Source: Whitmania pigra (Eukaryota > Annelida > Clitellata > Hirudinida > Haemopidae). From it: a DNA stretch of 64,000 bases. Location: contig JAJTWR010000317.1 of the NCBI GenBank assembly GCA_021613335.1, positions 679,963 to 743,962 on the forward strand, read 5' to 3'. Both the position numbers and the translations under genes were made by a program. This document shows positions 16,067 to 64,000 of this stretch, piece after piece. Position 1 is the first letter of the stretch. Each line of letters opens with the position of its first letter. The notes beneath the pieces were generated by a model. The model saw only the letters and a program-made list of their open reading frames with translations, did not search any database and was not told the origin of the DNA.

Positions 16067-16134
<68 letters not shown>

Positions 16135-42315: not shown

Positions 42316-43070
42316 GCCATGACGCACGTCTACAATGACAAAGGTTCACTGAAGCCGATAGAAATAGAAGGACCTCTATTCACCTCACCTAACGTTCCGA
42401 TATTCCAAGAAATTCATCCGTACTCTAAACAAACCTACGCAATCCCTGATTGCCGTGAACAAACAAAAGAAATGAGAAGCCAGTCCTCAATGTTTTCCTC
42501 AAGAGAGGATCTGGGATCTACCCGATTGTTGTTCCCATGCCGAATGGAAGTTTGGCCATTGGGAACAGGAACATTGACAAGACTGTCAAGGTTTGTCGAG
42601 TCAGACCGTGGATCCGAGATTTGAAATCGGAGTACGAAAGCAGTGAGGAGACGGTGAAAAGAGGTCGCGGCAGACCAAGAATTCATCCGATTGTTCGACA
42701 GCACGATAATGACTGTGAAAACATTGATGAAACAGTCAGAAGAGGTCGTGGAAGACCGAGGATCCATCCGATCGTCGAAACTAAACCTGTTGAAAATGGC
42801 GATATCGGAGAGAATGTCTGCGAACAAGTGAAAAGAGGCCGTGGCAGACCTAGGATTCATCCGATTGCTCCACCACAAGGAGATATGGAATTGGACGTTG
42901 AGCAGAACCCAGAATACCTCAAAAGAGGTAGGGGTAGACCGAGAAAATACCAAAAATGTGAGGATGAGGAGTCGGACAATGAGGACGTCTCCGAATGTCC
43001 AAAGAGAGGTAGGGGTAGACCGAGAAAATACCCAAGATATGAAGAACCAGACACTTCGACTAAAATCTAA
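42316..43070 (+). pseudogene. Left-end AT-hook copy: 5'-truncated and frameshifted
   Basis: Array identity starts at GCCATGACGCACG inside the coding region, at about codon 93 of the full gene. An A is missing in the AAAAGAAATGAG run (near 42470), which shifts the frame; the AT-hook part then reads correctly only from about 42537. No promoter or N-terminal CxxC region is present. The 3' end, with one internal 81-bp repeat, and the 3' UTR are intact and lead into the promoter of the first full copy. Confidence 0.9.
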
Positions 43071-43310
43071 CTTTGCTTGGAACGACTTTAGCTAAATTTA
43101 ACACTTCGGGACTTATTTTGTCATTTTTTTTCTCTTGTTCAGTTTGATAATAAAACTTGAAAATTCTTTAATAAACGTGTTTTGTTGTCAACGCGAAAAT
43201 TTATAACAATGCATAATGAGCAGCGAGAGTAAATAAAGCAATAATATTAATTTAACAGTAAAGCGATAAAAAAAATAATTATACCGATAAGATATGATAA
43301 TAATAAATAA

Positions 43311-43486
43311 CTTGGGGGCGGAGCCTGTGCGCGCATGCATCGACCGCGCGGATGCATGCGACTGATATGTCTATATAAAGGATTCGAGGGCGCTTTCTTG
43401 TCATTCTCTTCTCGGACAGCGTCCTGACGGCCACAAAGTTATAAGCAGTCGAGTAGCGATATAAATAGCTCGCAGCAGCCGCAATT
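43311..43486 (+). promoter_or_regulatory. Promoter and 5' leader of the array unit (first full copy as reference)
   Basis: GGGGGCGGAGCC (GC box) at 43314, a perfect inverted repeat CGCATGCATC (43332-43341) / GATGCATGCG (43351-43360) with a 9-bp spacer, and TATATAAAG at 43372-43380. The TATA lies ~113 bp before the ATG. A second TATA-like TATAAATA lies 25-30 bp before the ATG. The same block precedes all 13 full copies. In the copy starting at 54276 the dyad spacer has three extra bases. Transcription is expected to start near 43403. Confidence 0.75.
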
Positions 43487-44518
43487 ATGACGAAATTTAC
43501 TATCAAGACTTGCGAGGTCGCAAGAAATAGATTGACGAAAATTTCTAAGAGGTCAAATATGCTTCTGAAGTCATTTCCTATGCAAATCGTAGTCCAAAAG
43601 GCGCCTAAATGGTGCTTGAAGTGTGGATTCGAGTGCGAAAATTCGAATGAAGAATTTTGCACGGATTGCCTGGAAGTGATATACACGTCTTTCCACGATA
43701 ACATCAGGTACGCTGCTAAAAGTGATCCAACGGACGGCGTTATGTGGGACAGTTTCGACAACGCCATGACGCACGTCTACAATGACAAAGGTTCACTGAA
43801 GCCGATAGAAATAGAAGGACCTCTATTCACCTCACCTAACGTTCCGATATTCCAAGAAATTCATCCGTACTCTAAACAAACCTACGCAATCCCTGATTGC
43901 CGTGAACAAACAAAAGAAAATGAGAAGCCAGTCCTCAATGTTTTCCTCAAGAGAGGATCTGGGATCTACCCGATTGTTGTTCCCATGCCGAATGGAAGTT
44001 TGGCCATTGGGAACAGGAACATTGACAAGACTGTCAAGGTTTGTCGAGTCAGACCGTGGATCCGAGATTTGAAATCGGAGTACGAAAGCAGTGAGGAGAC
44101 GGTGAAAAGAGGTCGCGGCAGACCAAGAATTCATCCGATTGTTCGACAGCACGATAATGACTGTGAAAACATTGATGAAACAGTCAGAAGAGGTCGTGGA
44201 AGACCGAGGATCCATCCGATCGTCGAAACTAAACCTGTTGAAAATGGCGATATCGGAGAGAATGTCTGCGAACAAGTGAAAAGAGGCCGTGGCAGACCTA
44301 GGATTCATCCGATTGCTCCACCACAAGGAGATATGGAATTGGACGTTGAGCAGAACCCAGAATACCTCAAAAGAGGTAGGGGTAGACCGAGAAAATACCA
44401 AAAATGTGAGGATGAGGAGTCGGACAATGAGGACGTCTCCGAATGTCCAAAGAGAGGTAGGGGTAGACCGAGAAAATACCCAAGATATGAAGAACCAGAC
44501 ACTTCGACTAAAATCTAA
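43487..44518 (+). CDS. Multi-AT-hook protein, array copy 1 (343 residues, 5 hooks)
   Basis: The protein family is not recognised. Residues 1-40 are basic. Residues 43-61 hold a paired-Cys motif (CLKC and CTDC at 43/46 and 58/61, plus Cys50), which could bind one zinc. Residues 65-190 have no known domain. The C-terminal half has five AT-hook cores, RGRGRPR, at about 208, 235, 266, 296 and 322. The first three are followed by IHPI and the last two by KY; the linkers are acidic (CEDEESDNEDVSECP). AT-hooks bind the minor groove of AT-rich DNA, as in HMGA or Drosophila D1, so a nuclear DNA-binding role is inferred. The start ATG follows CCGCAATT and lies ~113 bp after TATA; no intron is needed. 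This copy has the fewest 81-bp repeats and an extra 3 bp (GGC) in the 3' UTR near 44557. Confidence 0.85.
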   Translation: MTKFTIKTCEVARNRLTKISKRSNMLLKSFPMQIVVQKAPKWCLKCGFECENSNEEFCTDCLEVIYTSFHDNIRYAAKSDPTDGVMWDSFDNAMTHVYNDKGSLKPIEIEGPLFTSPNVPIFQEIHPYSKQTYAIPDCREQTKENEKPVLNVFLKRGSGIYPIVVPMPNGSLAIGNRNIDKTVKVCRVRPWIRDLKSEYESSEETVKRGRGRPRIHPIVRQHDNDCENIDETVRRGRGRPRIHPIVETKPVENGDIGENVCEQVKRGRGRPRIHPIAPPQGDMELDVEQNPEYLKRGRGRPRKYQKCEDEESDNEDVSECPKRGRGRPRKYPRYEEPDTSTKI

Positions 44519-44937
44519 CTTTGCTTGGAACGACTTTAGCTAAATTTAACACTTCGGCGGGACTTATTTTGTCATTTTTTTTCTCTTGTTCAGTTTGATA
44601 ATAAAACTTGAAAATTCTTTAATAAACGTGTTTTGTTGTCAACGCGAAAATTTATAACAATGCATAATGAGCAGCGAGAGTAAATAAAGCAATAATATTA
44701 ATTTAACAGTAAAGCGATAAAAAAAATAATTATACCGATAAGATATGATAATAATAAATAACTTGGGGGCGGAGCCTGTGCGCGCATGCATCGACCGCGC
44801 GGATGCATGCGACTGATATGTCTATATAAAGGATTCGAGGGCGCTTTCTTGTCATTCTCTTCTCGGACAGCGTCCTGACGGCCACAAAGTTATAAGCAGT
44901 CGAGTAGCGATATAAATAGCTCGCAGCAGCCGCAATT

Positions 44938-46131
44938 ATGACGAAATTTACTATCAAGACTTGCGAGGTCGCAAGAAATAGATTGACGAAAATTTCTAAG
45001 AGGTCAAATATGCTTCTGAAGTCATTTCCTATGCAAATCGTAGTCCAAAAGGCGCCTAAATGGTGCTTGAAGTGTGGATTCGAGTGCGAAAATTCGAATG
45101 AAGAATTTTGCACGGATTGCCTGGAAGTGATATACACGTCTTTCCACGATAACATCAGGTACGCTGCTAAAAGTGATCCAACGGACGGCGTTATGTGGGA
45201 CAGTTTCGACAACGCCATGACGCACGTCTACAATGACAAAGGTTCACTGAAGCCGATAGAAATAGAAGGACCTCTATTCACCTCACCTAACGTTCCGATA
45301 TTCCAAGAAATTCATCCGTACTCTAAACAAACCTACGCAATCCCTGATTGCCGTGAACAAACAAAAGAAAATGAGAAGCCAGTCCTCAATGTTTTCCTCA
45401 AGAGAGGATCTGGGATCTACCCGATTGTTGTTCCCATGCCGAATGGAAGTTTGGCCATTGGGAACAGGAACATTGACAAGACTGTCAAGGTTTGTCGAGT
45501 CAGACCGTGGATCCGAGATTTGAAATCGGAGTACGAAAGCAGTGAGGAGACGGTGAAAAGAGGTCGCGGCAGACCAAGAATTCATCCGATTGTTCGACAG
45601 CACGATAATGACTGTGAAAACATTGATGAAACAGTCAGAAGAGGTCGTGGAAGACCGAGGATCCATCCGATCGTCGAAACTAAACCTGTTGAAAATGGCG
45701 ATATCGGAGAGAATGTCTGCGAACAAGTGAAAAGAGGCCGTGGCAGACCTAGGATTCATCCGATTGCTCCACCACAAGGAGATATGGAATTGGACGTTGA
45801 GCAGAACCCAGAATACCTCAAAAGAGGTAGGGGTAGACCGAGAAAATACCAAAAATGTGAGGATGAGGAGTCGGACAATGAGGACGTCTCCGAATGTCCA
45901 AAGAGAGGTAGGGGTAGACCGAGAAAATACCAAAAATGTGAGGATGAGGAGTCGGACAATGAGGACGTCTCCGAATGTCCAAAGAGAGGTAGGGGTAGAC
46001 CGAGAAAATACCAAAAATGTGAGGATGAGGAGTCGGACAATGAGGACGTCTCCGAATGTCCAAAGAGAGGTAGGGGTAGACCGAGAAAATACCCAAGATA
46101 TGAAGAACCAGACACTTCGACTAAAATCTAA
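44938..46131 (+). CDS. Multi-AT-hook protein, array copy 2 (397 residues, 7 hooks)
   Basis: Identical in layout to copy 1 but with three tandem 27-residue acidic-linker/AT-hook units instead of one. This makes it the copy with the most intact hooks (seven). The frame is open to the normal end DTSTKI. Confidence 0.85.
   Translation: MTKFTIKTCEVARNRLTKISKRSNMLLKSFPMQIVVQKAPKWCLKCGFECENSNEEFCTDCLEVIYTSFHDNIRYAAKSDPTDGVMWDSFDNAMTHVYNDKGSLKPIEIEGPLFTSPNVPIFQEIHPYSKQTYAIPDCREQTKENEKPVLNVFLKRGSGIYPIVVPMPNGSLAIGNRNIDKTVKVCRVRPWIRDLKSEYESSEETVKRGRGRPRIHPIVRQHDNDCENIDETVRRGRGRPRIHPIVETKPVENGDIGENVCEQVKRGRGRPRIHPIAPPQGDMELDVEQNPEYLKRGRGRPRKYQKCEDEESDNEDVSECPKRGRGRPRKYQKCEDEESDNEDVSECPKRGRGRPRKYQKCEDEESDNEDVSECPKRGRGRPRKYPRYEEPDTSTKI
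45822..46091 (+). repeat. 81-bp AT-hook minisatellite inside copy 2
   Basis: Three tandem 81-bp units, each encoding a KYQKCEDEESDNEDVSECP linker and KRGRGRPR hook. The other copies carry one to three units at the same place. Confidence 0.9.
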
Positions 46132-46546
46132 CTTTGCTTGGAACGACTTTAGCTAAATTTAACACTTCGGGACTTATTTTGTCATTTTTTTTCTCTTGTT
46201 CAGTTTGATAATAAAACTTGAAAATTCTTTAATAAACGTGTTTTGTTGTCAACGCGAAAATTTATAACAATGCATAATGAGCAGCGAGAGTAAATAAAGC
46301 AATAATATTAATTTAACAGTAAAGCGATAAAAAAATAATTATACCGATAAGATATGATAATAATAAATAACTTGGGGGCGGAGCCTGTGCGCGCATGCAT
46401 CGACCGCGCGGATGCATGCGACTGATATGTCTATATAAAGGATTCGAGGGCGCTTTCTTGTCATTCTCTTCTCGGACAGCGTCCTGACGGCCACAAAGTT
46501 ATAAGCAGTCGAGTAGCGATATAAATAGCTCGCAGCAGCCGCAATT

Positions 46547-47767
46547 ATGACGAAATTTACTATCAAGACTTGCGAGGTCGCAAGAAATAGATTGACGAAA
46601 ATTTCTAAGAGGTCAAATATGCTTCTGAAGTCATTTCCTATGCAAATCGTAGTCCAAAAGGCGCCTAAATGGTGCTTGAAGTGTGGATTCGAGTGCGAAA
46701 ATTCGAATGAAGAATTTTGCACGGATTGCCTGGAAGTGATATACACGTCTTTCCACGATAACATCAGGTACGCTGCTAAAAGTGATCCAACGGACGGCGT
46801 TATGTGGGACAGTTTCGACAACGCCATGACGCACGTCTACAATGACAAAGGTTCACTGAAGCCGATAGAAATAGAAGGACCTCTATTCACCTCACCTAAC
46901 GTTCCGATATTCCAAGAAATTCATCCGTACTCTAAACAAACCTACGCAATCCCTGATTGCCGTGAACAAACAAAAGAAAATGAGAAGCCAGTCCTCAATG
47001 TTTTCCTCAAGAGAGGATCTGGGATCTACCCGATTGTTGTTCCCATGCCGAATGGAAGTTTGGCCATTGGGAACAGGAACATTGACAAGACTGTCAAGGT
47101 TTGTCGAGTCAGACCGTGGATCCGAGATTTGAAATCGGAGTACGAAAGCAGTGAGGAGACGGTGAAAAGAGGTCGCGGCAGACCAAGAATTCATCCGATT
47201 GTTCGACAGCACGATAATGACTGTGAAAACATTGATGAAACAGTCAGAAGAGGTCGTGGAAGACCGAGGATCCATCCGATCGTCGAAACTAAACCTGTTG
47301 AAAATGGCGATATCGGAGAGAATGTCTGCGAACAAGTGAAAAGAGGCCGTGGCAGACCTAGGATTCATCCGATTGCTCCACCACAAGGAGATATGGAATT
47401 GGACGTTGAGCAGAACCCAGAATACCTCAAAAGAGGTAGGGGTAGACCGAGAAAATACCAAAAATGTGAGGATGAGGAGTCGGACAATGAGGACGTCTCC
47501 GAATGTCCAAAGAGAGGTAGGGGTAGACCGAGAAAATACCAAAAATGTGAGGATGAGGAGTCGGACAATGAGGACGTCTCCGAATGTCCAAAGAGAGGTA
47601 GGGGTAGACCGACCGAGAATACCAAAAATGTGAGGATGAGGAGTCGGACAATGAGGACGTCTCCGAATGTCCAAAGAGAGGTAGGGGTAGACCGAGAAAA
47701 TACCCAAGATATGAAGAACCAGACACTTCGACTAAAATCTAACTTTGCTTGGAACGACTTTAGCTAA
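46547..47767 (+). CDS. Multi-AT-hook protein, array copy 3 (406 codons, frameshifted end)
   Basis: It has three 81-bp units, but the third hook region reads AGACCGACCGAGAATACC near 47608, an indel that shifts the frame after KRGRGRP. The last ~50 residues are therefore unrelated (NVRMRSRTMRTSPNVQ...) and the final two hooks are lost. Six hook cores remain, the sixth cut short. Either a decaying copy or a sequencing error. Confidence 0.8.
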   Translation: MTKFTIKTCEVARNRLTKISKRSNMLLKSFPMQIVVQKAPKWCLKCGFECENSNEEFCTDCLEVIYTSFHDNIRYAAKSDPTDGVMWDSFDNAMTHVYNDKGSLKPIEIEGPLFTSPNVPIFQEIHPYSKQTYAIPDCREQTKENEKPVLNVFLKRGSGIYPIVVPMPNGSLAIGNRNIDKTVKVCRVRPWIRDLKSEYESSEETVKRGRGRPRIHPIVRQHDNDCENIDETVRRGRGRPRIHPIVETKPVENGDIGENVCEQVKRGRGRPRIHPIAPPQGDMELDVEQNPEYLKRGRGRPRKYQKCEDEESDNEDVSECPKRGRGRPRKYQKCEDEESDNEDVSECPKRGRGRPTENTKNVRMRSRTMRTSPNVQREVGVDRENTQDMKNQTLRLKSNFAWNDFS

Positions 47768-48157
47768 ATTTAACACTTCGGGACTTATTTTGTCATTTTT
47801 TTTCTCTTGTTCAGTTTGATAATAAAACTTGAAAATTCTTTAATAAACGTGTTTTGTTGTCAACGCGAAAATTTATAACAATGCATAATGAGCAGCGAGA
47901 GTAAATAAAGCAATAATATTAATTTAACAGTAAAGCGATAAAAAAATAATTATACCGATAAGATATGATAATAATAAATAACTTGGGGGCGGAGCCTGTG
48001 CGCGCATGCATCGACCGCGCGGATGCATGCGACTGATATGTCTATATAAAGGATTCGAGGGCGCTTTCTTGTCATTCTCTTCTCGGACAGCGTCCTGACG
48101 GCCACAAAGTTATAAGCAGTCGAGTAGCGATATAAATAGCTCGCAGCAGCCGCAATT

Positions 48158-49270
48158 ATGACGAAATTTACTATCAAGACTTGCGAGGTCGCAAGAAATA
48201 GATTGACGAAAATTTCTAAGAGGTCAAATATGCTTCTGAAGTCATTTCCTATGCAAATCGTAGTCCAAAAGGCGCCTAAATGGTGCTTGAAGTGTGGATT
48301 CGAGTGCGAAAATTCGAATGAAGAATTTTGCACGGATTGCCTGGAAGTGATATACACGTCTTTCCACGATAACATCAGGTACGCTGCTAAAAGTGATCCA
48401 ACGGACGGCGTTATGTGGGACAGTTTCGACAACGCCATGACGCACGTCTACAATGACAAAGGTTCACTGAAGCCGATAGAAATAGAAGGACCTCTATTCA
48501 CCTCACCTAACGTTCCGATATTCCAAGAAATTCATCCGTACTCTAAACAAACCTACGCAATCCCTGATTGCCGTGAACAAACAAAAGAAAATGAGAAGCC
48601 AGTCCTCAATGTTTTCCTCAAGAGAGGATCTGGGATCTACCCGATTGTTGTTCCCATGCCGAATGGAAGTTTGGCCATTGGGAACAGGAACATTGACAAG
48701 ACTGTCAAGGTTTGTCGAGTCAGACCGTGGATCCGAGATTTGAAATCGGAGTACGAAAGCAGTGAGGAGACGGTGAAAAGAGGTCGCGGCAGACCAAGAA
48801 TTCATCCGATTGTTCGACAGCACGATAATGACTGTGAAAACATTGATGAAACAGTCAGAAGAGGTCGTGGAAGACCGAGGATCCATCCGATCGTCGAAAC
48901 TAAACCTGTTGAAAATGGCGATATCGGAGAGAATGTCTGCGAACAAGTGAAAAGAGGCCGTGGCAGACCTAGGATTCATCCGATTGCTCCACCACAAGGA
49001 GATATGGAATTGGACGTTGAGCAGAACCCAGAATACCTCAAAAGAGGTAGGGGTAGACCGAGAAAATACCAAAAATGTGAGGATGAGGAGTCGGACAATG
49101 AGGACGTCTCCGAATGTCCAAAGAGAGGTAGGGGTAGACCGAGAAAATACCAAAAATGTGAGGATGAGGAGTCGGACAATGAGGACGTCTCCGAATGTCC
49201 AAAGAGAGGTAGGGGTAGACCGAGAAAATACCCAAGATATGAAGAACCAGACACTTCGACTAAAATCTAA
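48158..49270 (+). CDS. Multi-AT-hook protein, array copy 4 (370 residues, 6 hooks)
   Basis: The commonest form: two 81-bp units and six hooks. The translation is the same as that of copies 5-9 and 11 as far as I can see. Confidence 0.85.
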   Translation: MTKFTIKTCEVARNRLTKISKRSNMLLKSFPMQIVVQKAPKWCLKCGFECENSNEEFCTDCLEVIYTSFHDNIRYAAKSDPTDGVMWDSFDNAMTHVYNDKGSLKPIEIEGPLFTSPNVPIFQEIHPYSKQTYAIPDCREQTKENEKPVLNVFLKRGSGIYPIVVPMPNGSLAIGNRNIDKTVKVCRVRPWIRDLKSEYESSEETVKRGRGRPRIHPIVRQHDNDCENIDETVRRGRGRPRIHPIVETKPVENGDIGENVCEQVKRGRGRPRIHPIAPPQGDMELDVEQNPEYLKRGRGRPRKYQKCEDEESDNEDVSECPKRGRGRPRKYQKCEDEESDNEDVSECPKRGRGRPRKYPRYEEPDTSTKI

Positions 49271-49685
49271 CTTTGCTTGGAACGACTTTAGCTAAATTTA
49301 ACACTTCGGGACTTATTTTGTCATTTTTTTTCTCTTGTTCAGTTTGATAATAAAACTTGAAAATTCTTTAATAAACGTGTTTTGTTGTCAACGCGAAAAT
49401 TTATAACAATGCATAATGAGCAGCGAGAGTAAATAAAGCAATAATATTAATTTAACAGTAAAGCGATAAAAAAAATAATTATACCGATAAGATATGATAA
49501 TAATAAATAACTTGGGGGCGGAGCCTGTGCGCGCATGCATCGACCGCGCGGATGCATGCGACTGATATGTCTATATAAAGGATTCGAGGGCGCTTTCTTG
49601 TCATTCTCTTCTCGGACAGCGTCCTGACGGCCACAAGTTATAAGCAGTCGAGTAGCGATATAAATAGCTCGCAGCAGCCGCAATT

Positions 49686-50798
49686 ATGACGAAATTTACT
49701 ATCAAGACTTGCGAGGTCGCAAGAAATAGATTGACGAAAATTTCTAAGAGGTCAAATATGCTTCTGAAGTCATTTCCTATGCAAATCGTAGTCCAAAAGG
49801 CGCCTAAATGGTGCTTGAAGTGTGGATTCGAGTGCGAAAATTCGAATGAAGAATTTTGCACGGATTGCCTGGAAGTGATATACACGTCTTTCCACGATAA
49901 CATCAGGTACGCTGCTAAAAGTGATCCAACGGACGGCGTTATGTGGGACAGTTTCGACAACGCCATGACGCACGTCTACAATGACAAAGGTTCACTGAAG
50001 CCGATAGAAATAGAAGGACCTCTATTCACCTCACCTAACGTTCCGATATTCCAAGAAATTCATCCGTACTCTAAACAAACCTACGCAATCCCTGATTGCC
50101 GTGAACAAACAAAAGAAAATGAGAAGCCAGTCCTCAATGTTTTCCTCAAGAGAGGATCTGGGATCTACCCGATTGTTGTTCCCATGCCGAATGGAAGTTT
50201 GGCCATTGGGAACAGGAACATTGACAAGACTGTCAAGGTTTGTCGAGTCAGACCGTGGATCCGAGATTTGAAATCGGAGTACGAAAGCAGTGAGGAGACG
50301 GTGAAAAGAGGTCGCGGCAGACCAAGAATTCATCCGATTGTTCGACAGCACGATAATGACTGTGAAAACATTGATGAAACAGTCAGAAGAGGTCGTGGAA
50401 GACCGAGGATCCATCCGATCGTCGAAACTAAACCTGTTGAAAATGGCGATATCGGAGAGAATGTCTGCGAACAAGTGAAAAGAGGCCGTGGCAGACCTAG
50501 GATTCATCCGATTGCTCCACCACAAGGAGATATGGAATTGGACGTTGAGCAGAACCCAGAATACCTCAAAAGAGGTAGGGGTAGACCGAGAAAATACCAA
50601 AAATGTGAGGATGAGGAGTCGGACAATGAGGACGTCTCCGAATGTCCAAAGAGAGGTAGGGGTAGACCGAGAAAATACCAAAAATGTGAGGATGAGGAGT
50701 CGGACAATGAGGACGTCTCCGAATGTCCAAAGAGAGGTAGGGGTAGACCGAGAAAATACCCAAGATATGAAGAACCAGACACTTCGACTAAAATCTAA
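49686..50798 (+). CDS. Multi-AT-hook protein, array copy 5 (370 residues)
   Basis: Standard six-hook form. Its leader lacks one A (GCCACAAGTT instead of GCCACAAAGTT near 49635), which places the TATA box one base closer to the ATG. Confidence 0.85.
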   Translation: MTKFTIKTCEVARNRLTKISKRSNMLLKSFPMQIVVQKAPKWCLKCGFECENSNEEFCTDCLEVIYTSFHDNIRYAAKSDPTDGVMWDSFDNAMTHVYNDKGSLKPIEIEGPLFTSPNVPIFQEIHPYSKQTYAIPDCREQTKENEKPVLNVFLKRGSGIYPIVVPMPNGSLAIGNRNIDKTVKVCRVRPWIRDLKSEYESSEETVKRGRGRPRIHPIVRQHDNDCENIDETVRRGRGRPRIHPIVETKPVENGDIGENVCEQVKRGRGRPRIHPIAPPQGDMELDVEQNPEYLKRGRGRPRKYQKCEDEESDNEDVSECPKRGRGRPRKYQKCEDEESDNEDVSECPKRGRGRPRKYPRYEEPDTSTKI

Positions 50799-51214
50799 CT
50801 TTGCTTGGAACGACTTTAGCTAAATTTAACACTTCGGGACTTATTTTGTCATTTTTTTTCTCTTGTTCAGTTTGATAATAAAACTTGAAAATTCTTTAAT
50901 AAACGTGTTTTGTTGTCAACGCGAAAATTTATAACAATGCATAATGAGCAGCGAGAGTAAATAAAGCAATAATATTAATTTAACAGTAAAGCGATAAAAA
51001 AAATAATTATACCGATAAGATATGATAATAATAAATAACTTGGGGGCGGAGCCTGTGCGCGCATGCATCGACCGCGCGGATGCATGCGACTGATATGTCT
51101 ATATAAAGGATTCGAGGGCGCTTTCTTGTCATTCTCTTCTCGGACAGCGTCCTGACGGCCACAAAGTTATAAGCAGTCGAGTAGCGATATAAATAGCTCG
51201 CAGCAGCCGCAATT

Positions 51215-52327: not shown

Positions 52328-52743
52328 CTTTGCTTGGAACGACTTTAGCTAAATTTAACACTTCGGGACTTATTTTGTCATTTTTTTTCTCTTGTTCAGT
52401 TTGATAATAAAACTTGAAAATTCTTTAATAAACGTGTTTTGTTGTCAACGCGAAAATTTATAACAATGCATAATGAGCAGCGAGAGTAAATAAAGCAATA
52501 ATATTAATTTAACAGTAAAGCGATAAAAAAAATAATTATACCGATAAGATATGATAATAATAAATAACTTGGGGGCGGAGCCTGTGCGCGCATGCATCGA
52601 CCGCGCGGATGCATGCGACTGATATGTCTATATAAAGGATTCGAGGGCGCTTTCTTGTCATTCTCTTCTCGGACAGCGTCCTGACGGCCACAAAGTTATA
52701 AGCAGTCGAGTAGCGATATAAATAGCTCGCAGCAGCCGCAATT

Positions 52744-53856: not shown

Positions 53857-54275
53857 CTTTGCTTGGAACGACTTTAGCTAAATTTAACACTTCGGGACTT
53901 ATTTTGTCATTTTTTTTCTCTTGTTCAGTTTGATAATAAAACTTGAAAATTCTTTAATAAACGTGTTTTGTTGTCAACGCGAAAATTTATAACAATGCAT
54001 AATGAGCAGCGAGAGTAAATAAAGCAATAATATTAATTTAACAGTAAAGCGATAAAAAAAATAATTATACCGATAAGATATGATAATAATAAATAACTTG
54101 GGGGCGGAGCCTGTGCGCGCATGCATCGCCGACCGCGCGGATGCATGCGACTGATATGTCTATATAAAGGATTCGAGGGCGCTTTCTTGTCATTCTCTTC
54201 TCGGACAGCGTCCTGACGGCCACAAAGTTATAAGCAGTCGAGTAGCGATATAAATAGCTCGCAGCAGCCGCAATT

Positions 54276-55388
54276 ATGACGAAATTTACTATCAAGACTT
54301 GCGAGGTCGCAAGAAATAGATTGACGAAAATTTCTAAGAGGTCAAATATGCTTCTGAAGTCATTTCCTATGCAAATCGTAGTCCAAAAGGCGCCTAAATG
54401 GTGCTTGAAGTGTGGATTCGAGTGCGAAAATTCGAATGAAGAATTTTGCACGGATTGCCTGGAAGTGATATACACGTCTTTCCACGATAACATCAGGTAC
54501 GCTGCTAAAAGTGATCCAACGGACGGCGTTATGTGGGACAGTTTCGACAACGCCATGACGCACGTCTACAATGACAAAGGTTCACTGAAGCCGATAGAAA
54601 TAGAAGGACCTCTATTCACCTCACCTAACGTTCCGATATTCCAAGAAATTCATCCGTACTCTAAACAAACCTACGCAATCCCTGATTGCCGTGAACAAAC
54701 AAAAGAAAATGAGAAGCCAGTCCTCAATGTTTTCCTCAAGAGAGGATCTGGGATCTACCCGATTGTTGTTCCCATGCCGAATGGAAGTTTGGCCATTGGG
54801 AACAGGAACATTGACAAGACTGTCAAGGTTTGTCGAGTCAGACCGTGGATCCGAGATTTGAAATCGGAGTACGAAAGCAGTGAGGAGACGGTGAAAAGAG
54901 GTCGCGGCAGACCAAGAATTCATCCGATTGTTCGACAGCACGATAATGACTGTGAAAACATTGATGAAACAGTCAGAAGAGGTCGTGGAAGACCGAGGAT
55001 CCATCCGATCGTCGAAACTAAACCTGTTGAAAATGGCGATATCGGAGAGAATGTCTGCGAACAAGTGAAAAGAGGCCGTGGCAGACCTAGGATTCATCCG
55101 ATTGCTCCACCACAAGGAGATATGGAATTGGACGTTGAGCAGAACCCAGAATACCTCAAAAGAGGTAGGGGTAGACCGAGAAAATACCAAAAATGTGAGG
55201 ATGAGGAGTCGGACAATGAGGACGTCTCCGAATGTCCAAAGAGAGGTAGGGGTAGACCGAGAAAATACCAAAAATGTGAGGATGAGGAGTCGGACAATGA
55301 GGACGTCTCCGAATGTCCAAAGAGAGGTAGGGGTAGACCGAGAAAATACCCAAGATATGAAGAACCAGACACTTCGACTAAAATCTAA
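54276..55388 (+). CDS. Multi-AT-hook protein, array copy 8 (370 residues)
   Basis: Standard six-hook coding sequence. Its promoter dyad carries three extra bases between the palindromic arms (ATCGCCGACC instead of ATCGACC near 54125-54134), the only promoter variant seen in a full copy. Confidence 0.85.
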   Translation: MTKFTIKTCEVARNRLTKISKRSNMLLKSFPMQIVVQKAPKWCLKCGFECENSNEEFCTDCLEVIYTSFHDNIRYAAKSDPTDGVMWDSFDNAMTHVYNDKGSLKPIEIEGPLFTSPNVPIFQEIHPYSKQTYAIPDCREQTKENEKPVLNVFLKRGSGIYPIVVPMPNGSLAIGNRNIDKTVKVCRVRPWIRDLKSEYESSEETVKRGRGRPRIHPIVRQHDNDCENIDETVRRGRGRPRIHPIVETKPVENGDIGENVCEQVKRGRGRPRIHPIAPPQGDMELDVEQNPEYLKRGRGRPRKYQKCEDEESDNEDVSECPKRGRGRPRKYQKCEDEESDNEDVSECPKRGRGRPRKYPRYEEPDTSTKI

Positions 55389-55804
55389 CTTTGCTTGGAA
55401 CGACTTTAGCTAAATTTAACACTTCGGGACTTATTTTGTCATTTTTTTTCTCTTGTTCAGTTTGATAATAAAACTTGAAAATTCTTTAATAAACGTGTTT
55501 TGTTGTCAACGCGAAAATTTATAACAATGCATAATGAGCAGCGAGAGTAAATAAAGCAATAATATTAATTTAACAGTAAAGCGATAAAAAAAATAATTAT
55601 ACCGATAAGATATGATAATAATAAATAACTTGGGGGCGGAGCCTGTGCGCGCATGCATCGACCGCGCGGATGCATGCGACTGATATGTCTATATAAAGGA
55701 TTCGAGGGCGCTTTCTTGTCATTCTCTTCTCGGACAGCGTCCTGACGGCCACAAAGTTATAAGCAGTCGAGTAGCGATATAAATAGCTCGCAGCAGCCGC
55801 AATT

Positions 55805-56917
55805 ATGACGAAATTTACTATCAAGACTTGCGAGGTCGCAAGAAATAGATTGACGAAAATTTCTAAGAGGTCAAATATGCTTCTGAAGTCATTTCCTATG
55901 CAAATCGTAGTCCAAAAGGCGCCTAAATGGTGCTTGAAGTGTGGATTCGAGTGCGAAAATTCGAATGAAGAATTTTGCACGGATTGCCTGGAAGTGATAT
56001 ACACGTCTTTCCACGATAACATCAGGTACGCTGCTAAAAGTGATCCAACGGACGGCGTTATGTGGGACAGTTTCGACAACGCCATGACGCACGTCTACAA
56101 TGACAAAGGTTCACTGAAGCCGATAGAAATAGAAGGACCTCTATTCACCTCACCTAACGTTCCGATATTCCAAGAAATTCATCCGTACTCTAAACAAACC
56201 TACGCAATCCCTGATTGCCGTGAACAAACAAAAGAAAATGAGAAGCCAGTCCTCAATGTTTTCCTCAAGAGAGGATCTGGGATCTACCCGATTGTTGTTC
56301 CCATGCCGAATGGAAGTTTGGCCATTGGGAACAGGAACATTGACAAGACTGTCAAGGTTTGTCGAGTCAGACCGTGGATCCGAGATTTGAAATCGGAGTA
56401 CGAAAGCAGTGAGGAGACGGTGAAAAGAGGTCGCGGCAGACCAAGAATTCATCCGATTGTTCGACAGCACGATAATGACTGTGAAAACATTGATGAAACA
56501 GTCAGAAGAGGTCGTGGAAGACCGAGGATCCATCCGATCGTCGAAACTAAACCTGTTGAAAATGGCGATATCGGAGAGAATGTCTGCGAACAAGTGAAAA
56601 GAGGCCGTGGCAGACCTAGGATTCATCCGATTGCTCCACCACAAGGAGATATGGAATTGGACGTTGAGCAGAACCCAGAATACCTCAAAAGAGGTAGGGG
56701 TAGACCGAGAAAATACCAAAAATGTGAGGATGAGGAGTCGGACAATGAGGACGTCTCCGAATGTCCAAAGAGAGGTAGGGGTAGACCGAGAAAATACCAA
56801 AAATGTGAGGATGAGGAGTCGGACAATGAGGACGTCTCCGAATGTCCAAAGAGAGGTAGGGGTAGACCGAGAAAATACCCAAGATATGAAGAACCAGACA
56901 CTTCGACTAAAATCTAA
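55805..56917 (+). CDS. Multi-AT-hook protein, array copy 9 (370 residues)
   Basis: Standard six-hook form. Confidence 0.85.
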   Translation: MTKFTIKTCEVARNRLTKISKRSNMLLKSFPMQIVVQKAPKWCLKCGFECENSNEEFCTDCLEVIYTSFHDNIRYAAKSDPTDGVMWDSFDNAMTHVYNDKGSLKPIEIEGPLFTSPNVPIFQEIHPYSKQTYAIPDCREQTKENEKPVLNVFLKRGSGIYPIVVPMPNGSLAIGNRNIDKTVKVCRVRPWIRDLKSEYESSEETVKRGRGRPRIHPIVRQHDNDCENIDETVRRGRGRPRIHPIVETKPVENGDIGENVCEQVKRGRGRPRIHPIAPPQGDMELDVEQNPEYLKRGRGRPRKYQKCEDEESDNEDVSECPKRGRGRPRKYQKCEDEESDNEDVSECPKRGRGRPRKYPRYEEPDTSTKI

Positions 56918-57335
56918 CTTTGCTTGGAACGACTTTAGCTAAATTTAACACTTCGGGACTTATTTTGTCATTTTTTTTCTCTTGTTCAGTTTGATAATAA
57001 AACTTGAAAATTCTTTAATAAACGTGTTTTGTTGTCAACGCGAAAATTTATAACAATGCATAATGAGCAGCGAGAGTAAATAAAGCAATAATATTAATTT
57101 AACAGTAAAGCGATAAAAAAAAAATAATTATACCGATAAGATATGATAATAATAAATAACTTGGGGGCGGAGCCTGTGCGCGCATGCATCGACCGCGCGG
57201 ATGCATGCGACTGATATGTCTATATAAAGGATTCGAGGGCGCTTTCTTGTCATTCTCTTCTCGGACAGCGTCCTGACGGCCACAAAGTTATAAGCAGTCG
57301 AGTAGCGATATAAATAGCTCGCAGCAGCCGCAATT

Positions 57336-58208
57336 ATGACGAAATTTACTATCAAGACTTGCGAGGTCGCAAGAAATAGATTGACGAAAATTTCTAAGAG
57401 GTCAAATATGCTTCTGAAGTCATTTCCTATGCAAATCGTAGTCCAAAAGGCGCCTAAATGGTGCTTGAAGTGTGGATTCGAGTGCGAAAATTCGAATGAA
57501 GAATTTTGCACGGATTGCCTGGAAGTGATATACACGTCTTTCCACGATAACATCAGGTACGCTGCTAAAAGTGATCCAACGGACGGCGTTATGTGGGACA
57601 GTTTCGACAACGCCATGACGCACGTCTACAATGACAAAGGTTCACTGAAGCCGATAGAAATAGAAGGACCTCTATTCACCTCACCTAACGTTCCGATATT
57701 CCAAGAAATTCATCCGTACTCTAAACAAACCTACGCAATCCCTGATTGCCGTGAACAAACAAAAGAAAATGAGAAGCCAGTCCTCAATGTTTTCCTCAAG
57801 AGAGGATCTGGGATCTACCCGATTGTTGTTCCCATGCCGAATGGAAGTTTGGCCATTGGGAACAGGAACATTGACAAGACTGTCAAGGTTTGTCGAGTCA
57901 GACCGTGGATCCGAGATTTGAAATCGGAGTACGAAAGCAGTGAGGAGACGGTGAAAAGAGGTCGCGGCAGACCAAGAATTCATCCGATTGTTCGACAGCA
58001 CGATAATGACTGTGAAAACATTGATGAAACAGTCAGAAGAGGTCGTGGAAGACCGAGGATCCATCCGATCGTCGAAACTAAACCTGTTGAAAATGGCGAT
58101 ATCGGAGAGAATGTCTGCGAACAAGTGAAAAGAGGCAGGAGCCTGAGGACAGACCGACTAGGATTCATCCGATTGCTCCACCACAAGAGATATGGAATTG
58201 GACGTTGA
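57336..58208 (+). pseudogene. Array copy 10: frameshifted AT-hook gene (290 codons)
   Basis: Normal through the second hook. In place of the third hook it reads AGAGGCAGGAGCCTGAGG (58131-58148), an insertion that destroys the hook and shifts the frame to an early stop at 58208. Downstream, further indels occur (CCAAAATG near 58257; AGAGGGTAGGGG near 58310). An extra linker/hook repeat makes this unit 1618 bp. Three 81-bp-type units can still be traced to 58537. This is the most damaged full-length unit. Confidence 0.85.
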
Positions 58209-58953
58209 GCAGAACCCAGAATACCTCAAAAGAGGTAGGGGTAGACCGAGAAAATACCAAAATGTGAGGATGAGGAGTCGGACAATGAGGACGTCTCCGA
58301 ATGTCCAAAGAGGGTAGGGGTAGACCGAGAAAATACCAAAAATGTGAGGATGAGGAGTCGGACAATGAGGACGTCTCCGAATGTCCAAAGAGAGGTAGGG
58401 GTAGACCGAGAAAATACCAAAAATGTGAGGATGAGGAGTCGGACAATGAGGACGTCTCCGAATGTCCAAAGAGAGGTAGGGGTAGACCGAGAAAATACCC
58501 AAGATATGAAGAACCAGACACTTCGACTAAAATCTAACTTTGCTTGGAACGACTTTAGCTAAATTTAACACTTCGGGACTTATTTTGTCATTTTTTTTCT
58601 CTTGTTCAGTTTGATAATAAAACTTGAAAATTCTTTAATAAACGTGTTTTGTTGTCAACGCGAAAATTTATAACAATGCATAATGAGCAGCGAGAGTAAA
58701 TAAAGCAATAATATTAATTTAACAGTAAAGCGATAAAAAAAATAATTATACCGATAAGATATGATAATAATAAATAACTTGGGGGCGGAGCCTGTGCGCG
58801 CATGCATCGACCGCGCGGATGCATGCGACTGATATGTCTATATAAAGGATTCGAGGGCGCTTTCTTGTCATTCTCTTCTCGGACAGCGTCCTGACGGCCA
58901 CAAAGTTATAAGCAGTCGAGTAGCGATATAAATAGCTCGCAGCAGCCGCAATT

Positions 58954-60066
58954 ATGACGAAATTTACTATCAAGACTTGCGAGGTCGCAAGAAATAGATT
59001 GACGAAAATTTCTAAGAGGTCAAATATGCTTCTGAAGTCATTTCCTATGCAAATCGTAGTCCAAAAGGCGCCTAAATGGTGCTTGAAGTGTGGATTCGAG
59101 TGCGAAAATTCGAATGAAGAATTTTGCACGGATTGCCTGGAAGTGATATACACGTCTTTCCACGATAACATCAGGTACGCTGCTAAAAGTGATCCAACGG
59201 ACGGCGTTATGTGGGACAGTTTCGACAACGCCATGACGCACGTCTACAATGACAAAGGTTCACTGAAGCCGATAGAAATAGAAGGACCTCTATTCACCTC
59301 ACCTAACGTTCCGATATTCCAAGAAATTCATCCGTACTCTAAACAAACCTACGCAATCCCTGATTGCCGTGAACAAACAAAAGAAAATGAGAAGCCAGTC
59401 CTCAATGTTTTCCTCAAGAGAGGATCTGGGATCTACCCGATTGTTGTTCCCATGCCGAATGGAAGTTTGGCCATTGGGAACAGGAACATTGACAAGACTG
59501 TCAAGGTTTGTCGAGTCAGACCGTGGATCCGAGATTTGAAATCGGAGTACGAAAGCAGTGAGGAGACGGTGAAAAGAGGTCGCGGCAGACCAAGAATTCA
59601 TCCGATTGTTCGACAGCACGATAATGACTGTGAAAACATTGATGAAACAGTCAGAAGAGGTCGTGGAAGACCGAGGATCCATCCGATCGTCGAAACTAAA
59701 CCTGTTGAAAATGGCGATATCGGAGAGAATGTCTGCGAACAAGTGAAAAGAGGCCGTGGCAGACCTAGGATTCATCCGATTGCTCCACCACAAGGAGATA
59801 TGGAATTGGACGTTGAGCAGAACCCAGAATACCTCAAAAGAGGTAGGGGTAGACCGAGAAAATACCAAAAATGTGAGGATGAGGAGTCGGACAATGAGGA
59901 CGTCTCCGAATGTCCAAAGAGAGGTAGGGGTAGACCGAGAAAATACCAAAAATGTGAGGATGAGGAGTCGGACAATGAGGACGTCTCCGAATGTCCAAAG
60001 AGAGGTAGGGGTAGACCGAGAAAATACCCAAGATATGAAGAACCAGACACTTCGACTAAAATCTAA
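58954..60066 (+). CDS. Multi-AT-hook protein, array copy 11 (370 residues)
   Basis: Standard six-hook form, intact despite lying between two frameshifted copies. Confidence 0.85.
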   Translation: MTKFTIKTCEVARNRLTKISKRSNMLLKSFPMQIVVQKAPKWCLKCGFECENSNEEFCTDCLEVIYTSFHDNIRYAAKSDPTDGVMWDSFDNAMTHVYNDKGSLKPIEIEGPLFTSPNVPIFQEIHPYSKQTYAIPDCREQTKENEKPVLNVFLKRGSGIYPIVVPMPNGSLAIGNRNIDKTVKVCRVRPWIRDLKSEYESSEETVKRGRGRPRIHPIVRQHDNDCENIDETVRRGRGRPRIHPIVETKPVENGDIGENVCEQVKRGRGRPRIHPIAPPQGDMELDVEQNPEYLKRGRGRPRKYQKCEDEESDNEDVSECPKRGRGRPRKYQKCEDEESDNEDVSECPKRGRGRPRKYPRYEEPDTSTKI

Positions 60067-60482
60067 CTTTGCTTGGAACGACTTTAGCTAAATTTAACAC
60101 TTCGGGACTTATTTTGTCATTTTTTTTCTCTTGTTCAGTTTGATAATAAAACTTGAAAATTCTTTAATAAACGTGTTTTGTTGTCAACGCGAAAATTTAT
60201 AACAATGCATAATGAGCAGCGAGAGTAAATAAAGCAATAATATTAATTTAACAGTAAAGCGATAAAAAAAATAATTATACCGATAAGATATGATAATAAT
60301 AAATAACTTGGGGGCGGAGCCTGTGCGCGCATGCATCGACCGCGCGGATGCATGCGACTGATATGTCTATATAAAGGATTCGAGGGCGCTTTCTTGTCAT
60401 TCTCTTCTCGGACAGCGTCCTGACGGCCACAAAGTTATAAGCAGTCGAGTAGCGATATAAATAGCTCGCAGCAGCCGCAATT

Positions 60483-61619
60483 ATGACGAAATTTACTATC
60501 AAGACTTGCGAGGTCGCAAGAAATAGATTGACGAAAATTTCTAAGAGGTCAAATATGCTTCTGAAGTCATTTCCTATGCAAATCGTAGTCCAAAAGGCGC
60601 CTAAATGGTGCTTGAAGTGTGGATTCGAGTGCGAAAATTCGAATGAAGAATTTTGCACGGATTGCCTGGAAGTGATATACACGTCTTTCCACGATAACAT
60701 CAGGTACGCTGCTAAAAGTGATCCAACGGACGGCGTTATGTGGGACAGTTTCGACAACGCCATGACGCACGTCTACAATGACAAAGGTTCACTGAAGCCG
60801 ATAGAAATAGAAGGACCTCTATTCACCTCACCTAACGTTCCGATATTCCAAGAAATTCATCCGTACTCTAAACAAACCTACGCAATCCCTGATTGCCGTG
60901 AACAAACAAAAGAAAATGAGAAGCCAGTCCTCAATGTTTTCCTCAAGAGAGGATCTGGGATCTACCCGATTGTTGTTCCCATGCCGAATGGAAGTTTGGC
61001 CATTGGGAACAGGAACATTGACAAGACTGTCAAGGTTTGTCGAGTCAGACCGTGGATCCGAGATTTGAAATCGGAGTACGAAAGCAGTGAGGAGACGGTG
61101 AAAAGAGGTCGCGGCAGACCAAGAATTCATCCGATTGTTCGACAGCACGATAATGACTGTGAAAACATTGATGAAACAGTCAGAAGAGGTCGTGGAAGAC
61201 CGAGGATCCATCCGATCGTCGAAACTAAACCTGTTGAAAATGGCGATATCGGAGAGAATGTCTGCGAACAAGTGAAAAGAGGCCGTGGCAGACCTAGGAT
61301 TCATCCGATTGCTCCACCACAAGGAGATATGGAATTGGACGTTGAGCAGAACCCAGAATACCTCAAAAGAGGTAGGGGTAGACCGAGAAAATACCAAAAT
61401 GTGAGGATGAGGAGTCGGACAATGAGGACGTCTCCGAATGTCCAAAGAGAGGTAGGGGTAGACCGAGAAAATACCAAAAATGTGAGGATGAGGAGTCGGA
61501 CAATGAGGACGTCTCCGAATGTCCAAAGAGAGGTAGGGGTAGACCGAGAAAATACCCAAGATATGAAGAACCAGACACTTCGACTAAAATCTAACTTTGC
61601 TTGGAACGACTTTAGCTAA
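60483..61619 (+). CDS. Multi-AT-hook protein, array copy 12 (378 codons, frameshifted end)
   Basis: Normal through the fourth hook. Then CCAAAATG replaces CCAAAAATG near 61393 and shifts the frame, so the last two hooks and linkers are replaced by an Arg/Ser-rich tail ending WNDFS. The same one-base loss in the same A-run occurs in copy 10. Confidence 0.8.
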   Translation: MTKFTIKTCEVARNRLTKISKRSNMLLKSFPMQIVVQKAPKWCLKCGFECENSNEEFCTDCLEVIYTSFHDNIRYAAKSDPTDGVMWDSFDNAMTHVYNDKGSLKPIEIEGPLFTSPNVPIFQEIHPYSKQTYAIPDCREQTKENEKPVLNVFLKRGSGIYPIVVPMPNGSLAIGNRNIDKTVKVCRVRPWIRDLKSEYESSEETVKRGRGRPRIHPIVRQHDNDCENIDETVRRGRGRPRIHPIVETKPVENGDIGENVCEQVKRGRGRPRIHPIAPPQGDMELDVEQNPEYLKRGRGRPRKYQNVRMRSRTMRTSPNVQREVGVDRENTKNVRMRSRTMRTSPNVQREVGVDRENTQDMKNQTLRLKSNFAWNDFS

Positions 61620-62010
61620 ATTTAACACTTCGGGACTTATTTTGTCATTTTTTTTCTCTTGTTCAGTTTGATAATAAAACTTGAAAATTCTTTAATAAAC
61701 GTGTTTTGTTGTCAACGCGAAAATTTATAACAATGCATAATGAGCAGCGAGAGTAAATAAAGCAATAATATTAATTTAACAGTAAAGCGATAAAAAAAAA
61801 TTATATACCGATAAGATATGATAATAATAAATAACTTGGGGGCGGAGCCTGTGCGCGCATGCATCGACCGCGCGGATGCATGCGACTGATATGTCTATAT
61901 AAAGGATTCGAGGGCGCTTTCTTGTCATTCTCTTCTCGGACAGCGTCCTGACGGCCACAAAGTTATAAGCAGTCGAGTAGCGATATAAATAGCTCGCAGC
62001 AGCCGCAATT

Positions 62011-63174
62011 ATGACGAAATTTACTATCAAGACTTGCGAGGTCGCAAGAAATAGATTGACGAAAATTTCTAAGAGGTCAAATATGCTTCTGAAGTCATTT
62101 CCTATGCAAATCGTAGTCCAAAAGGCGCCTAAATGGTGCTTGAAGTGTGGATTCGAGTGCGAAAATTCGAATGAAGAATTTTGCACGGATTGCCTGGAAG
62201 TGATATACACGTCTTTCCACGATAACATCAGGTACGCTGCTAAAAGTGATCCAACGGACGGCGTTATGTGGGACAGTTTCGACAACGCCATGACGCACGT
62301 CTACAATGACAAAGGTTCACTGAAGCCGATAGAAATAGAAGGACCTCTATTCACCTCACCTAACGTTCCGATATTCCAAGAAATTCATCCGTACTCTAAA
62401 CAAACCTACGCAATCCCTGATTGCCGTGAACAAACAAAAGAAAATGAGAAGCCAGTCCTCAATGTTTTCCTCAAGAGAGGATCTGGGATCTACCCGATTG
62501 TTGTTCCCATGCCGAATGGAAGTTTGGCCATTGGGAACAGGAACATTGACAAGACTGTCAAGGTTTGTCGAGTCAGACCGTGGATCCGAGATTTGAAATC
62601 GGAGTACGAAAGCAGTGAGGAGACGGTGAAAAGAGGTCGCGGCAGACCAAGAATTCATCCGATTGTTCGACAGCACGATAATGACTGTGAAAACATTGAT
62701 GAAACAGTCAGAAGAGGTCGTGGAAGACCGAGGATCCATCCGATCGTCGAAACTAAACCTGTTGAAAATGGCGATATCGGAGAGAATGTCTGCGAACAAG
62801 TGAAAAGAGGCCGAGATTTGAAATCGGAGTACGAAAGCAGTGAGGAGACGGTGAAAAGATGTCGCGGCAGACCTAGGATTCATCCGATTGCTCCACCACA
62901 AGGAGATATGGAATTGGACGTTGAGCAGAACCCAGAATACCTCAAAAGAGGTAGGGGTAGACCGAGAAAATACCAAAAATGTGAGGATGAGGAGTCGGAC
63001 AATGAGGACGTCTCCGAATGTCCAAAGAGAGGTAGGGGTAGACCGAGAAAATACCAAAAATGTGAGGATGAGGAGTCGGACAATGAGGACGTCTCCGAAT
63101 GTCCAAAGAGAGGTAGGGGTAGACCGAGAAAATACCCAAGATATGAAGAACCAGACACTTCGACTAAAATCTAA
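62011..63174 (+). CDS. Multi-AT-hook protein, array copy 13 (387 residues, with patch duplication)
   Basis: At 62812-62866 a segment copied from before the first hook (RDLKSEYESSEETVKR) is inserted in frame inside the third hook. The following hook reads KRCRGRPR, with Cys for Gly/Arg-type core position 2. The rest has the normal two 81-bp units. The 3' UTR also differs from the others (TTTTAAAAACGTG instead of TTTAATAAACGTG near 63272), losing the second AATAAA. It is the last full unit before the LINE junction. Confidence 0.85.
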   Translation: MTKFTIKTCEVARNRLTKISKRSNMLLKSFPMQIVVQKAPKWCLKCGFECENSNEEFCTDCLEVIYTSFHDNIRYAAKSDPTDGVMWDSFDNAMTHVYNDKGSLKPIEIEGPLFTSPNVPIFQEIHPYSKQTYAIPDCREQTKENEKPVLNVFLKRGSGIYPIVVPMPNGSLAIGNRNIDKTVKVCRVRPWIRDLKSEYESSEETVKRGRGRPRIHPIVRQHDNDCENIDETVRRGRGRPRIHPIVETKPVENGDIGENVCEQVKRGRDLKSEYESSEETVKRCRGRPRIHPIAPPQGDMELDVEQNPEYLKRGRGRPRKYQKCEDEESDNEDVSECPKRGRGRPRKYQKCEDEESDNEDVSECPKRGRGRPRKYPRYEEPDTSTKI

Positions 63175-63414
63175 CTTTGCTTGGAACGACTTTAGCTAAA
63201 TTTAACACTTCGGGACTTATTTTGTCATTTTTTTTCTCTTGTTCAGTTTGATAATAAAACTTGAAAATTCTTTTAAAAACGTGTTTTTTGTTGTCAACGC
63301 GAAAATTTATAACAATGCATAATGAGCAGCGAGAGTAAATAAAGCAATAATATTAATTTAACAGTAAAGCGATAAAAAAAAATAATTATACCGATAAGAT
63401 ATGATAATAATAAA

Positions 63415-63509
63415 TAACTTGGGGGCGGAGCCTGTGCGCGCATGCATCGACCGCGCGGATGCATGCGACTGATATGTCTATATAAAGGATTCGAGGGCGC
63501 TTTCTTGTC
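63415..63509 (+). promoter_or_regulatory. Orphan array promoter at the right end
   Basis: An intact copy of the unit's GC box, dyad and TATA (TATAAA at 63481-63486). Identity to the array stops after TTTCTTGTC at 63509, about 29 bp past the TATA start. It therefore drives whatever begins at 63510. Confidence 0.75.
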
Positions 63510-63733
63510 GGGCCAGCTTTTTCACTGCGACGGAGGCGAGAGTCGTTGTTTACTTGTGAATAAACCAGCGAAACAAGAATCGAGTTGGCGCGAAAGCGGA
63601 GAACAAAGCGGGAGTACCTTATCGACGTATAAGAAAGTTGGTCAGAAATTTGAAATTGGAGCAGCGTACGGATAGCTTTTCTCTCATTCGTTTGCGAAAA
63701 AAAAAAAAATTTTCGGCTTCGTGCGTTCTACGA

Positions 63734-63943: not shown

Positions 63944-63986
63944 GATCATTGCATGCAAGGATCTTTTGATCGTTCTTGCCAAGAAC
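63921..63986. other. Strong hairpin near the end of ORF1
   Basis: GTTCTTGGCAGGAACGA (63921-63937) is the reverse complement of TCGTTCTTGCCAAGAAC (63970-63986) except for one base. An inner stem AAGATC (63942) / GATCTT (63960) and a GCATGC loop extend it. Each arm also contains a small self-complementary GTTCTTG/AAGAAC segment. Confidence 0.8.
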
Positions 63987-64000
63987 GAGGCGGAGATAGC

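Follow-up and report, generated by a model that had tools for sequence, protein, structure and literature searches.

In Drosophila, the Stellate genes are protein genes that stand in tandem as short units in many copies. The deubiquitinase of the macrosatellite RS447 is USP17, and the coding macrosatellites known to us are mainly mammalian. HMGA proteins are short (~100 amino acids) and combine three AT-hooks with an acidic tail; we know of neither HMGA nor D1 as a tandem-array gene. According to PMC3018141, RS447 monomers hold an open reading frame (ORF) for a deubiquitinating enzyme, D4Z4 monomers hold one for the DNA-binding protein DUX4 and an array on chromosome 5 holds one for a TAF11-like protein, and a title cited in that source describes RS447 'with a functional promoter'. 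D1 and mouse HMGA1 are AT-hook proteins that bind and bundle pericentromeric satellites, as stated in PMC7214746. Here we describe a tandem array of genes for a multi-AT-hook protein in a 64,000-nucleotide stretch of the genome of the leech Whitmania pigra (the whole of this stretch is called the window), in which positions 42316-63509 comprise a 5'-truncated copy, then 13 complete head-to-tail units (43329-63435) and then a fourteenth promoter.

The array resembles Stellate in consisting of tandem protein genes with short units and many copies, and differs from it in its protein, that of Stellate being casein-kinase-like and silenced through a partner repeat. With D4Z4 and RS447 (PMC3018141) it shares kilobase units arranged head to tail, an ORF per monomer and confinement to one or two chromosomal places, and the binding of DNA by DUX4 of D4Z4 is a likeness to the AT-hook protein encoded here. 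Unlike both, it encodes an unrelated protein, has a unit of ~1.5 kb instead of 3.3 and 4.7 kb, and lies in an annelid genome. Three hallmarks of a coding macrosatellite were found, namely kilobase head-to-tail units, an ORF in each unit, and an array confined to contigs C325 and C14 together with an older pair of copies on contig C48. Two more hallmarks are copy number that varies between individuals, at which a difference between the C14 and C325 copies hints, and transcription from a working promoter, for which the units offer promoter-like elements. The preliminary description of this DNA had held that tandem arrays with a promoter in every unit are otherwise those of ribosomal DNA, histone, small nuclear RNA or transfer RNA genes, which was overstated in view of Stellate. 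It was equally so in view of RS447, D4Z4 and the TAF11-like array (PMC3018141), so that there is nothing new in protein genes that stand in tandem with one ORF to each unit; what is new, as far as our searches reach, is this protein and its lineage.

The reading that we favour, though not strongly, is that the locus is a young, homogenised coding macrosatellite that could give a high dose of a lineage-restricted multi-AT-hook protein, predicted to be nuclear and to bind the minor groove. It would place a coding macrosatellite in an annelid, one whose unit is compact (1.5 kb) and whose predicted DNA-binding product is an orphan, and if expressed it would be a convenient system in which to ask if the number of copies in an array determines how much of a chromatin protein is made, and if the number of hooks follows the satellite content.

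Organisation of the array and its units

The array lies on contig C325, which ends where the window ends. All coordinates are those of the whole window unless a contig or locus is named, and the genome searched was one assembly of 178,173,256 bases in 381 contigs. The parts of the array are as follows, with the boundary between units 7 and 8 set at 54115 by BLAST:

42316-43328, + strand: 5'-truncated copy that starts within the coding region, at unit position 435; 1-base deletion
43329-44779, + strand: unit 1, 1451 bp; ORF 43487-44518, 343 amino acids, 5 AT-hooks
44780-46388, + strand: unit 2, 1609 bp; ORF 44938-46131, 397 amino acids, 7 AT-hooks
46389-47999, + strand: unit 3, 1611 bp; ORF 46547-47767, 406 amino acids, frameshift in the sixth hook (net +2 bases)
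47985-48078, + strand: representative core promoter (unit 4), with the GGGCGGAGCC box, the dyad CGCATGCATC/GATGCATGCG, TATATAAA at unit position 44 and TCATTC at unit position 73
48000-49528, + strand: unit 4 (reference), 1529 bp; ORF 48158-49270, 370 amino acids, 6 AT-hooks
49529-57177, + strand: units 5-9, starting at 49529, 51057, 52586, 54115 and 55647 (1528, 1529, 1529, 1532 and 1531 bp); five ORFs, protein identical to that of unit 4
57178-58795, + strand: unit 10, 1618 bp; ORF 57336-58208, 290 amino acids, third hook rearranged and frameshifted
58796-60324, + strand: unit 11, 1529 bp; ORF 58954-60066, 370 amino acids, identical to unit 4
60325-61852, + strand: unit 12, 1528 bp; ORF 60483-61619, 378 amino acids, one-base frameshift in an A run
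61853-63435, + strand: unit 13, 1583 bp; ORF 62011-63174, 387 amino acids, in frame, 51-bp internal insertion rearranging one hook
63436-63509, + strand: promoter of copy 14 (unit positions 1-74), cut at the predicted transcription start by a long interspersed nuclear element (LINE)
63510-64000, + strand: 5' part of the inserted LINE

Each of the 13 units has an ATG frame (290-406 amino acids), with starts from 43487 to 62011; seven of the 13 encode the identical 370-residue protein, and the normal C-terminus ...TSTKI is reached by 10 of the 13 frames. Units 4, 6, 7 and 11 (4/13) are the same 1529 bp letter for letter. Compared with unit 4, the other units differ almost entirely by small insertions or deletions and by whole 81-bp modules, substitutions being called only in units 10 and 13. 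The central units (4-9 and 11) are mostly alike and the outer ones mostly rearranged, with unit 10 as the exception, which is the pattern that unequal exchange predicts. Judged from the letters alone, the near-identity across 13 kilobase units is far beyond chance. A lone 59-bp fragment of the unit (unit positions 697-755, 96.6% identical) lies at 33726-33784, ~8.5 kb upstream of the array.

Each unit contains, in this order, the GGGCGGAGCC box, the short dyad, TATATAAA, a single ATG frame and AATAAA signals, and has at sequence level the appearance of an intact RNA polymerase II gene without introns. The start of TATATAAA at unit position 44 and of TCATTC at position 73 places an initiator-like A 31 bases after the start of the TATA box, TCATTC being what we take to be an initiator-like motif from the initiator consensus. 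Exact-match scans located the TATA block in all 14 promoters and the exact dyad block in all but one (13 of 14), the exception being the unit that begins near 54115, which has 3 extra bases at this point; by the same scans all 14 unit ends carry the first poly(A) block (GATAATAAAACTTG...), and 13 of the 14 the block that contains the second AATAAA. The tandem, head-to-tail and self-contained units of the preliminary description were thereby confirmed, as were its seven identical 370-residue proteins with six AT-hooks, while its count of 13 genes holds for ATG frames, three of which are broken. All 17 promoter matches in the genome fall in the array on C325, in the overlapping end of C14 or in the C48 pair. 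The unit spacer has 23.6% GC, against 35.7% for window positions 1-42000, so that binding of the protein to its own units, with feedback, is conceivable.

The LINE cuts copy 14 after unit position 74 (window 63509; L009:5069), and unit positions 64-74 (GCTTTCTTGTC) are found on both sides of it as an 11-base duplication. On contig C14 its ORF2 can be read as 1270 amino acids with endonuclease, reverse transcriptase and RNase H domains, and beyond it copy 14 resumes, continuing to unit position 415 and then giving way to a dispersed repeat that occurs in at least 39 other places at 92-93% identity among the matches listed. The left edge of the array adjoins a piece of a different dispersed repeat (at least 39 other places, 78-83%, again among the matches listed), one match of which lies inside the LINE on C14. 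Between the two flanks no homology was found beyond a 19-base match (E 0.29). The ends of C14 and C325 agree at 99.0% over 2005 bp, with 6 mismatches and 9 gaps, and could represent two alleles or ends that were not merged. Near the ATG, a 57-base insertion with a 12-base duplication is present in the C14 copy and absent from the C325 copy, a difference that hints at variation.

The array begins at unit position 435 (window 42316) and ends at unit position 415 (L009:4650), thus in nearly the same phase; the chance of phases within 20 bases, computed post hoc, is ~2.6%. The shared phase could stem from insertion of a linearised circular multimer or from coincidence, the latter being conceivable because dispersed repeats lie at both edges.

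The encoded protein and its relatives

The 370-residue protein has six RGRP cores in basic context, at residues 210, 237, 268, 298, 325 and 352. By the loose motif R[GCS]RP[RT], there are 5 hooks in the 343-residue, 6 in the 370-residue and 7 in the 397-residue form. The 81-bp module encodes one hook and an acidic spacer, so that hook number varies between 5, 6 and 7; a rearranged hook in unit 13 (387 amino acids) makes its count differ, 6 by the loose motif but 5 by the strict motif RGRGRPR. In a six-frame search of the genome, most array hooks reached 17.4-17.5 bits with Pfam AT_hook only together with their neighbours, and two other places passed the cut-off, C373:183714-183749 (19.3 bits) and C220:2515975-2516010 (18.4 bits). 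Cysteines 43, 46, 50, 58 and 61 are invariant in four of four aligned proteins, and the paired CxxC motif reported earlier was confirmed; the N-terminal part is cysteine-rich and perhaps binds zinc.

Relatives were sought by a word-based search of 5.8 billion proteins, which requires shared five-residue words, so that distant relatives may be missed. With the full-length query 7987 candidates were scored and 324 proteins found at E up to 1. Two proteins among the best 120 of these 324 are conspicuous: P0001, 85% identical over 87% of the query, and P0002, 75% identical over 85%. None of the remaining 118 covers more than 65% of the query, and in the five of them whose sequences were inspected the match lies in the hooks. 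Residues 1-204 alone returned two proteins from 110 candidates, again P0001 and P0002, both unnamed and from contigs of 1388 and 1466 bp whose source is labelled lgn. The four Pfam families listed (RFX5_DNA_bdg, AT_hook, DTHCT and ASFV_p27) were all below cut-off, a profile search of the PDB gave no match among 177635 sequences, none of 19 pattern matches to viral contigs (two peptide patterns used) was confirmed, and an Rfam scan of the window gave no match. For the non-hook part, neither Pfam nor the search with residues 1-204 nor the viral contigs yielded a protein of transposon or viral kind. The characterisation of the product as an unrecognised multi-AT-hook protein was upheld, P0001 and P0002 being the two relatives found for its N-terminal part. 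Among the open-licence PMC papers listed in our literature searches, none deals with a leech AT-hook gene, judged by title or the start of the abstract.

Several RGRP-type AT-hooks are common to the array protein, D1 and HMGA; the hook context RPRIHPI and the cysteine-rich part set it apart from both. With 370 amino acids, six hooks and KYPRYEEPDTSTKI as its last residues, it does not fit the pattern of HMGA, and neither D1 nor HMGA came up when residues 1-204 were searched, Drosophila D1 itself not having been compared directly. Since D1 and HMGA1 bind satellites, a chromatin role for the array protein is plausible by analogy.

If the locus is a young coding macrosatellite, as we favour, its gene would encode a protein restricted to this lineage, whose N-terminal part is rich in cysteine and perhaps binds zinc and whose tail holds five to seven AT-hooks. 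The pattern of differences suggests that unequal exchange between units would keep the copies nearly identical and alter copy number, and that gain or loss of 81-bp modules within the gene would alter hook number. Many promoters transcribed together would yield a high dose of protein, whose cysteine pairs may bind zinc and whose hooks would bind AT-rich minor grooves with high avidity; in the weakest step, such a multivalent binder might coat or bundle AT-rich DNA, most plausibly in the germ line or early embryo. That a dosage-tunable macrosatellite protein packages the genome's own AT-rich satellites, with copy and hook number co-evolving with satellite load and possibly in germ-line conflict, is a more specific proposal that we regard as unlikely. 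Satellite or heterochromatin binding had rightly been flagged at the outset as inference only, although the dosage-driven version then proposed went further than any direct support. Long TAA/TTA simple-sequence arrays, possible AT-hook targets, lie at window 11805-12114 and 15991-16214; their similarity to the unit spacer is 72-75% and of low complexity.

Constraint and competing explanations

Contig C48 carries an older tandem pair, consisting of an open 332-codon frame from the matching ATG, with a protein 76% identical to the array protein, and a degenerate copy just upstream (L011:5290-6013). Over 311 aligned codons, nonsynonymous over synonymous divergence (dN/dS) between array and C48 paralogue was 0.131/0.317 (NG86), 0.139/0.262 (YN00) and 0.133/0.270 (maximum likelihood), and the differences by codon position numbered 37, 39 and 63. 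Among the 98 codons with a single change, a test that leaves out 20 codons with two or three changes, 43 changes were synonymous and 55 nonsynonymous, where a synonymous share of 0.251 was expected (one-sided P 4e-5); by the same count, residues 25-204 showed 22 synonymous and 34 nonsynonymous changes (P 0.01) and residues 205-370 showed 21 and 16 (P 8e-5). A dN/dS of ~0.4-0.5 indicates that the gene has been under constraint. The promoter region also aligns with C48 (score 121.5; the best of 300 two-base-block shuffles reached 78), as does the 3' spacer (155; the best of 200 such shuffles reached 106.5); C48 was therefore rejected as a retrocopy, spacer and promoter being homologous as well. 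Around the C48 paralogue, several divergent minus-strand ORFs stand in a row (L011:1046-9272) and are RRM-like by eye.

Several observations weigh against the favoured reading. Three of the 13 frames are broken by frameshifts (units 3, 10 and 12), and dN/dS is only moderately below 1. The TATA box of C48 lies ~240 bases away from the start-site homology, so that the promoter there is possibly broken. Pfam AT_hook scored 15.7 bits for the whole protein, below its 17.4 cut-off, and AlphaFold2, run from 4 sequences, gave no confident fold (mean predicted local distance difference test score 32.6), so that a zinc fold is at most putative. The idea that the dyad forms an unusual hairpin was rejected (z -0.76), since 37 of 200 shuffles fold equally well or better. 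Relative to the C48 paralogue, codons 1-24 have five nonsynonymous changes, no synonymous one and hence no sign of constraint, and the homologues P0001 and P0002 are annotated as starting at the residue equivalent to Met25; translation may therefore begin at Met25 instead of Met1, although the numbers are small. This possible start, the truncated copy at 42316-43328 and the LINE-interrupted fourteenth copy that resumes on C14 go beyond the preliminary description. The ~240-base stretch of C48 has 3 partial matches elsewhere and sits at the same point as the LINE insertion in copy 14.

Some of these points would also suit a functional gene of single or few copies whose additional copies are neutral by-products of recent unequal exchange, their dosage having no role. 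The core copies are almost without differences, so that selection on copy number cannot be seen in them, and the broken frames, like the one open and one degenerate copy on C48, point the same way. Yet 10 of the 13 frames reach the normal end, the TATA block has been kept in all 14 promoters and tandem copies of the gene arose at two loci, and we consider the neutral explanation possible but doubtful.

A selfish or conflict array of the Stellate or Dox type, in which a germ-line driver or suppressor acts on the satellite chromatin of gametes and a transmission advantage raises copy number, would account for the recent amplification, the fast evolution of the protein and an N-terminal part with only two relatives found, and the LINE at the predicted start site may hint at germ-line accessibility. 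Non-selfish arrays can look alike, however, and such an origin appears quite improbable to us.

The near-indistinguishable units 4-9 (~9.2 kb) raise the question of an artefact in which the assembly expanded one or two real copies, the more so as C325 ends just after the array and C14 ends inside the overlapping copy. The units of 1451, 1609, 1611, 1618 and 1583 bp have private rearrangements that mark distinct positions, however, and C14 also shows the last copy, the LINE and the end fragment. Assembly error is, from these features, unlikely as the cause of the array, and we give very little credence to an expansion of just one or two copies.

The AT-hook tail has a counterpart in a gene on contig C345 (L013:4170-5150), in which a gag-like N-terminus is fused to AT-hooks of array-like context. 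Its tail has three RPRI(H/R)P hooks and a final RPRKYPR hook, in the same order and context as in the array protein, from which it differs in its gag-like N-terminus; one-against-one blastp with composition adjustment gave 5e-18. Pfam Retrotrans_gag scored 17.1 bits with this gene, below the 24.1 cut-off, and no repeated 40-mers suggestive of long terminal repeats were found in L013. No other full-length match came up in the genome search, the gag relative next in line having 50% identity and no hooks, and the gene looks like a domesticated gag gene. The protein P0021 reads identical to the C345 gene, and a relative, P0010, lies on a 2.4-Mb contig of another source. The transposon or viral protein that the preliminary description had named as its refutation was not found for the non-hook part, although the hook tail does resemble that of a gag-like gene. 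Derivation from, or carriage by, a retroelement through this shared tail nevertheless seems most improbable, since the searches with the N-terminal part brought up neither a transposon nor a viral protein, RGRP is absent from seven of seven other gag relatives fetched (frames over 150 amino acids; at least 136 matches in the genome search, with loci given for 8), cores of AT-hooks can arise by convergence, and the units that were read show no mobile-element sequence except for the LINE in copy 14 and the short insertion in the C14 copies.

Other features of the window and genome

Upstream of the array, at ~35.7-41.6 kb of the window, lies an ABCF3 gene, of which 671 residues were pieced together from exons; its closest relative among the best 120 of 7992 candidates is from Helobdella robusta (69%, 1028 bits). 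In order of score there follow proteins of Smittium (42%, 959 bits), of an unspecified source at JGI (two, 64% and 63%, 953 and 946 bits), of a vole (56%, 927 bits) and of Lingula (61%, 917 bits). A Ty3/gypsy-like element lies on the minus strand at 3950-8463; its pol frame is open over 1132 codons, and its gag frame has SAP and zinc-knuckle domains. Elsewhere in the assembly, C115, C49, C360 and C47, which may be bacterial contigs, gave four matches to the COX1 family that contain no stop codon in the standard code.

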